From NCBI GenBank assembly GCA_020052515.1, contig JAGVOW010000019.1, positions 1-43,820 of the forward strand: a stretch of 43,820 bases of DNA, in the 5' to 3' direction. The DNA comes from Brevinematales bacterium. Lineage in GTDB: Bacteria > Spirochaetota > Brevinematia > Brevinematales > JAOACQ01. The position numbers and the translations under genes are program-made. This document shows, in pieces, positions 6,089 to 41,428 of this stretch (position 1 is the stretch's first letter; each line of letters opens with the position of its first letter). The notes below the pieces were generated by a model. The model made no database searches. It had not been told where the DNA came from and saw only the letters and a list, made by a program, of their open reading frames with translations.

Positions 6089-6132
6089 ATAAATACATAG
6101 GCGCGGTGAATTCACCGCGCCTATGTATTTAT
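6089..6132. repeat. 44-bp perfect palindrome (GCGCGGT family, copy 1)
   Basis: The 22 bases on each side of the centre (GAATTC at 6108-6113) are exact reverse complements. The G/C-rich core CATAGGCGCGGT and its complement are flanked by AT arms. The same core recurs at 41397-41428. It lies between the HU terminator and ndk and could form a long hairpin in either strand. Confidence 0.9.
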
Positions 6133-15690: not shown

Positions 15691-15751
15691 CCCTCACCAT
15701 TTTGTAGAGACGTACAGCCGTACGTCTCTACAAAATGGTGAGGGTTTTTTT
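15691..15751 (+). terminator. palindromic repeat (GTAGAGAC family, copy A) acting as terminator
   Basis: Two perfect 25-base arms (15691-15715 and 15720-15744) flank the loop AGCC. Seven T follow at 15745-15751. It lies 22 bases after the ABC ATPase stop codon. The arms share CCCTCACC and GTAGAGAC/GTCTCTAC with two copies inside rnpB, so it is both a member of a repeat family and a likely intrinsic terminator. Confidence 0.85.
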
Positions 15752-20487: not shown

Positions 20488-20631
20488 AAATTATAGAAAA
20501 AAGAGCAGGCTGGAGAAACGCCCTGCCTTATGGCGGGGAGGAAAGTCCGGGCATCAAAAAGCAGCGGGCCGGTTAATGGCCGGGGTTCTGTCTTCGGACG
20601 GGAAACGGAAAGCGCCACAGAAAACAGACCG

Positions 20632-20675
20632 CCCCCTTTGTAGAGACATACGGCCGTATGTCTCTACAAAGGGGG
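20632..20675. repeat. palindromic repeat inside rnpB (GTAGAGAC family, copy B)
   Basis: A perfect 44-bp palindrome: 22 bases from CCCCCTTTGTAGAGAC to ACGG are followed by their exact reverse complement. It sits between CAGACCG and TAAGGGTGAAA of RNase P RNA. E. coli has a much shorter hairpin there. Confidence 0.9.
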
Positions 20676-20786
20676 TAAGGGTGAAAAGGCGGTGTAAGAG
20701 ACCACCGCGGATTGCGTAAGCAATCCGGCATGGCAAGCCCCCCGCAATGCAAGGTTAAATAGACGCTTATCCTACTGCTTTGTAGG

Positions 20787-20848
20787 CGTCCCTCACCTTT
20801 TTTGTAGAGGCGTAAGGCCGTACGCCTCTACAAAAAAGGTGAGGGACG
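20787..20848. repeat. palindromic repeat inside rnpB (GTAGAGAC family, copy C)
   Basis: Arms of 28 bases (20787-20814 and 20821-20848) are perfect complements around loop AGGCCG. Inner arms read GTAGAGGCGTA/TACGCCTCTAC and outer arms CCCTCACC/GGTGAGGG, as in copy A. The three outermost pairs (CGT/ACG) may belong to the host RNA. Confidence 0.9.
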
Positions 20849-20950
20849 AAAAGCGCGGGTAAATCGCTGGATTTTGTTTGTAAAAACAAAACTAGATGGA
20901 TGTTTCTCTGTCACAGAACCCGGCTTACAGGCCTGCTCTATTATTAAATT

Positions 20951-41396: not shown

Positions 41397-41428
41397 GCAT
41401 AGGCGCGGTTAATTAACCGCGCCTATGC
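41397..41428. repeat. 32-bp perfect palindrome (GCGCGGT family, copy 2)
   Basis: GCATAGGCGCGGTTAA is followed by its exact reverse complement. The core is the same as copy 1 at 6089-6132, but the central pair is T-A instead of G-C, changed on both arms. It lies just upstream of the UPF0182 start, between it and dacB. Confidence 0.9.

Follow-up and report, generated by a model that had tools for sequence, protein, structure and literature searches.

Two members of a dispersed palindromic repeat lie within the RNase P RNA gene of a Brevinematales bacterium

We analyzed a 43,820-nt stretch of DNA from a Brevinematales bacterium (GenBank assembly GCA_020052515.1, the source genome; contig JAGVOW010000019.1, positions 1 to 43,820), hereafter the window. 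Its forward strand carries a full-length, 442-nt RNase P RNA gene, rnpB, at 20502-20943. The gene matches the Rfam model RF00010 from end to end (model positions 1-367, E = 6.5e-90), and its score of 278.1 bits, against a gathering score of 100, identifies it as a bacterial class A RNase P RNA and is within the range of scores of its relatives. An earlier, sequence-only reading of this DNA, which had recommended such a search with the Rfam RNase P models, recognized rnpB and placed the end of the RNA at 20939, while the RF00010 match gives an end near 20943. The P6/P17 contact is retained in this RNA: the 5' strand of P6 (AAAGC, 20558-20562) is complementary to the loop (GCTTT, 20777-20781) of a hairpin, CCTACTGCTTTGTAGG, that we assign to P17 from its position and the predicted fold (20771-20786). 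The same complementarity is found in G001, the only genome of the same family that was searched (assembly 86% complete).

The RF00010-matched interval contains two palindromes, in agreement with the sequence-only reading, and a related one lies 5 kb upstream of rnpB, all three being given here on the forward strand. Palindrome B (20632-20675) is a perfect 44-nt palindrome with 22-bp arms (100% identity, zero mismatches), which the Rfam alignment and the predicted fold both place at the tip of the P12 helix, whose arms are CCCCCTTT and AAAGGGGG. Palindrome C (20787-20848) is 62 nt long, with 31-bp arms (97% identity) whose one mismatched pair is central; it begins directly 3' of the P17 hairpin, is predicted to add a hairpin at the base of P17, is an unmodelled insert in the RF00010 alignment and is absent from G001. 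Palindrome A (15691-15744) is 54 nt long with a 4-nt centre and terminator-like, with TTTTTTT following it; the genes on its two sides encode a sugar-transport ATPase and a LysM/M23 peptidase. Each contains a 28-nt core (15704-15731 in A, 20640-20667 in B and 20804-20831 in C) in which GTAG pairs with CTAC at the opposite end, and the cores are identical at 25/28 (A-B), 24/28 (A-C) and 23/28 (B-C) positions. Perfect arms in the window reach a maximum of 28 bp (loop up to 7 nt), compared to only 8-10 bp in eight first-order Markov shuffles, and therefore these palindromes are not products of chance.

In the predicted fold, B and C each form independently, the former lengthening P12 and the latter adding a branch on P16. 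Removing C in silico and joining its flanks restored P16 (five pairs) and P17 (six pairs), and a P12 hairpin remained when the flanks of B were joined. Both sites are peripheral and, with the P6/P17 contact kept and the model matched over its full length, these results bear out the earlier claim that B and C occupy peripheral helices and leave the core of the RNA intact. In our reading, the active core is untouched and the cell therefore tolerates both palindromes. The hairpins could instead be kept for a function, either as terminator-like or processing signals or as a protein-binding helix in RNase P. The P12 tip of RNase P RNA does carry protein-binding expansions in archaea and eukaryotes (PMC12974513), and A is intergenic, as are several copies of the second palindrome family described below, some of them followed by T-runs. 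However, no T-run follows B or C and neither hairpin is conserved in relatives, so we regard retention for function as very improbable.

To describe the distribution of the 28-nt core, GTAGAGRCGYACGGCCGTRCGYCTCTAC, we searched the source genome by pattern. A genome-wide search for the palindrome found the core at 8 places, compared to 0 for a reversed control pattern, and a half-site search added two further copies, shortened or decayed. Contigs C65 and C67 each terminate within a core palindrome and may represent two sides of one copy, and contig C95 (L004, 43,724 nt) looks like a mirrored sequence folded back at a core copy, an assembly artefact. Taking these cases into account, the core occupies, by pattern search, about nine loci, probably an undercount. 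The three copies previously noted are therefore real but are only the window's share of the family, and the finding of other copies removes one result, their absence, that would have pointed to ordinary helix growth. In all source-genome copies except the artefact in C95, TTT precedes the core and AAA follows it, and inspection of the flanks by eye revealed no target-site duplication of the constant kind expected for a MITE of a DDE transposon. Two of the approximately nine loci lie in a single 442-nt gene, rnpB; the chance that at least two of nine random copies would do so is near 1e-6 for the whole genome, or 1e-4 on the assumption that a tenth of the genome is accessible, in both cases for a gene picked post hoc. 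Separately, another repeat, TTGGAGAGGGGGACGG, has about a dozen matches in the source genome (e.g. C7:18, C15:336, C29:102), some of them near contig starts.

The mirrored contig C95 and the ends of C65 and C67 show that palindromes of this kind can coincide with assembly faults, and B and C might be such artefacts. We consider this the least probable of the explanations weighed here, given that rnpB reads through both palindromes, has the correct unique sequence flanking each of them and matches its model in full, that B and C differ from one another, and that the central mismatch in C is unexpected from a fold-back.

In A and C, the outer arms, CCCTCACC...GGTGAGGG, are those of a second dispersed palindrome, found at eight places in the source genome. 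Five further perfect loci carry these arms around another interior, about 21 nt long, and the elements that have no core show TTTG(T/C).../...CAAA where the core would sit; a pattern search for a CCCTCACC hairpin with a loop of less than 25 nt gave no match. Since the arms recur elsewhere with a different interior, A and C are composites, in each of which a CCCTCACC hairpin encloses a GTAG core. The likeness of the inner arms of A, B and C that had been noted earlier is thus upheld, while the derivation of the outer arms of A and C from a second repeat family had been missed. With a covariance model built from the CCCTCACC loci, we recovered one extra copy in the source genome (C4:1145-1200), along with four matches in G011, at two places, and fourteen in G021 (counting both strands of each palindrome in the latter two genomes). 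The two G011 copies have 63 identical bases in common and are 1.5 kb apart in different surroundings. In the source genome, one CCCTCACC copy (C35:25003-25053) lies within a terminal loop of a cobalamin riboswitch (RF00174, 66 bits; L077 1391-1612), a loop that the RF00174 model treats as a free insert, upstream of a gene that we take to encode a TonB-type receptor; another is immediately 3' of a tRNA cluster. The riboswitch copy provides a further palindrome in an RNA gene, a class of site that the sequence-only reading had proposed to count.

These dispersed copies also bear on whether B and C arose by ordinary lengthening of P12 and the P17 region through local slippage, their likeness being due to chance or to gene conversion within rnpB. 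P12 length does vary widely across the phylum, and rnpB genes of at least 400 nt are not unique to the source genome. This explanation is nevertheless already contradicted by the presence of the 28-nt core at unrelated loci, where the reversed control gave zero, and by the arms of the second dispersed element in C, and we see very little chance that it is correct.

Comparison of rnpB with that of relatives, which had also been suggested, placed the palindromes in evolutionary context. In G001, P12 is an ordinary helix (CTCCTTACCA-loop-TGGTGAGGAG), TAAT stands in place of C, and a pattern search of this 86%-complete assembly did not find the GTAG core. In the order-level relatives G002, G003, G005 and G008, P12 is short and unrelated in sequence, and the B and C hairpins are likewise missing, contrary to what would be expected if long helices at these positions were general among relatives. 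The empty rnpB sites are known at the family level, from G001, and not from an occupied and empty pair of close strains; the genes flanking rnpB in the source genome are not beside rnpB in G001, so synteny adds no empty-site evidence. As the repeat is present elsewhere in the source genome and absent in relatives, we infer that B and C were gained rather than lost from the other lineages. A scan of 84,980 species genomes, a set that may leave out near relatives of the source genome, for the GTAG palindrome joined to the P12 3' flank returned one match, in a TA06 genome, which is not RNase P RNA. In G001 (L014), the sequence of the P12 loop, TTTGTATAGAG, may derive by decay from the left half of a GTAG core; if so, the P12 insertion would predate the split of the two genera.

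Long palindromes in P9 or P12 were also observed in rnpB genes of two other families of the phylum, in a comparison made mostly among the longest genes, from which no frequency can be derived. In the rnpB of G021, P9 and P12 each hold a CCCTCACC-type palindrome that has relatives at other sites of that genome, and in G142 (L095; RNA score 306 bits) P12 is a 62-nt perfect palindrome, ACCACCTCACCCCCC...GGGGGGTGAGGTGGT. P12 seems to be a site where repeats land again and again or one where they are easily tolerated. Of the two alternatives raised by the sequence-only reading, tolerance or a preference for structured RNA, landing at hairpin tips followed by tolerance fits these observations, and an active preference for RNA genes is not proved by them. 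G036 has a 627-nt rnpB (L113 / L032) in which a long tandem array, with units of about 24 nt, enlarges P12.

Across the phylum the GTAG core is patchy, occurring with up to one mismatch in 8/60 genomes, one of which, G030, has 62 copies. In 30 G030 copies that we measured, the palindrome extends a mean of 4.8 bp outside the 28-nt core, compared to 0.32 bp in controls in which the same flanks were paired out of register, and the extension is at least 4 bp in 60% of copies versus 0.2% of controls. As 18 of the 30 share a larger outer repeat, these copies are not independent; the remaining 12, two of which copy one further outer element, have a mean outer arm of 4.6 bp. Five measured copies in the source genome extend 8-17 bp outside the core, and G048 (L178, L179) contains cores within cores. 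Across genomes, the core is found in the middle of longer inverted repeats much more frequently than expected by chance. Two copies of one outer repeat in G030 (L147 and L171) differ by changes that match between the two arms flanking the core, as though symmetry were under correction. Either the core lands at the centres of inverted repeats or symmetry grows after it has landed; because the P12 helix is older than the insert, P12 favours landing at an existing hairpin.

To identify a candidate mover of the core, we searched for Y1 transposases. The source genome has five matches, two of them above the cut-off of NCBIfam NF047646 (REP-associated tyrosine transposase, RAYT) and a third just below it; the match on C54 qualifies as a RAYT (81.9 bits against a cut-off of 80) and has a palindrome on both sides. 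Four of the Y1 genes (L056, L054, L053 and L057, on C54, C26, C33 and C47) adjoin non-GTAG palindromes of three different kinds, the same palindrome being present on both sides of the gene in C54 and C26. The window itself contains perfect palindromes, CATAGGCGCGGT...ACCGCGCCTATG, at 6089-6132 and 41397-41428, which are related to the one flanking the C54 RAYT. None of the five Y1 genes is flanked by the GTAG palindrome, all being beside different palindromes or none, and no Y1 gene was found in G030 (genome 85% complete) despite its 62 core copies. A RAYT acting in trans could plausibly move the GTAG core.

The main rival to movement by a RAYT in trans is that the core spreads without a transposase, through replication template switching between hairpin tips that share TTTGTA/TACAAA, followed by quasi-palindrome correction that makes the arms symmetrical. 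The TTT and AAA around the core, the matching ends at the same place in coreless CCCTCACC elements, the paired changes in the two G030 copies and the failure to find a cognate transposase are all consistent with such a process. On the other hand, the patchy distribution across distant families and the 62 copies in one genome resemble active transposition, and P12 is an ancient helix, so that the arms of B preceded its core. On balance, we consider template switching unlikely, though worth serious attention.

From these data, we propose that small, non-autonomous, REP-like palindromes inserted into rnpB at hairpin tips to give B and C and are tolerated there, a reading to which we assign a probability of about three in four. 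The dispersed copies and the absence of the hairpins from relatives support the repeat-insertion interpretation put forward in the sequence-only reading, and neither of the outcomes that it named as speaking against insertion was observed. According to this proposal, the GTAG core would tend to land in the centre of a pre-existing inverted repeat, that is, at a hairpin tip: B would have inserted into the tip of P12, while in A and C the core would have entered a hairpin of the second family, the composite C coming to lie at the foot of P17. We infer that movement would occur as a single-stranded hairpin, acted on in trans by a Y1/HUH (RAYT-type) transposase. In the transcript, each insert would form a self-folding rigid rod that stacks on P12 or makes a three-way junction on P16. 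The catalytic core would still fold, selection would tolerate the inserts, and a benefit to the host need not be assumed. It is also possible, though we put it forward tentatively, that a widespread palindromic element homing to single-stranded DNA hairpin tips repeatedly builds helices into catalytic and regulatory RNAs, as in RNase P RNA in several lineages of this phylum and the cobalamin riboswitch.

Several known systems resemble this one in part. Rickettsial palindromic elements (RPEs) are palindromic repeats tolerated in functional genes and are known for in-frame insertion into protein genes. B and C are likewise palindromes tolerated within a functional gene, but that gene is rnpB, and by eye the RPE sequence is unrelated to the source-genome core. 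In cyanobacterial rnpB, short tandem repeats (STRR) reportedly lengthen P12 and are dispensable in vitro. STRR and the present elements are both dispersed repeats inside rnpB, whereas B and C are palindromes with no tandem units and so are not STRR, to which the P12 array of G036 is a closer match. The occurrence of STRR in rnpB of heterocystous cyanobacteria is attributed to Vioque 1997, as cited in PMC2858038. RPEs are also cited by Di Nocera et al. 2013 (PMC3733652), who describe GTAG-tagged REPs as small, intergenic, dispersed palindromes with a terminal GTAG, some families of which are nested in longer palindromes, and whose movement by RAYTs is hypothesized. The source-genome core is also small, dispersed (about nine loci here and 62 copies in G030) and palindromic with a terminal GTAG. 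In those REPs, however, the GTAG tag at one end of the stem-loop stays unpaired, while that of A, B and C is paired with CTAC at the other end; no RAYT gene flanked by the core was found in the source genome, nor any Y1 gene in G030; and structured-RNA hosts are unmentioned in PMC3733652, while the core described here lies in rnpB. Because its GTAG is paired and no RAYT adjoins it, we do not file the core as a GTAG REP, although it behaves like one.

GTAG REPs and their nesting in palindromes, STRR in rnpB and expansion of RNase P RNA at the P12 tip are thus already known, while a search, with partial coverage of the literature, for the core sequence and for dispersed palindromes in rnpB found no report. 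The interpretation of B and C as insertions is well supported. Structured RNAs gain helices that leave the older structure intact, and where these helices come from can seldom be seen. Expansion segments of RNase P RNA arise as new helices at the P12 tip or as branches that leave the base structure undisturbed and, in the available part of the source describing them (PMC12974513), are not traced to mobile repeats. In the rnpB studied here, the source sequence of the new helices is identified, recurs at other loci of the genome and is amenable to a deletion test. This case indicates how an essential RNA can acquire helices from selfish repeats. If hairpin tips are what palindromes aim for, RNA genes would offer natural targets as well as tolerant hosts, and the origin of expansion segments would be open to experiment; such homing, if true, would provide a concrete molecular route to the growth of RNA expansion segments.
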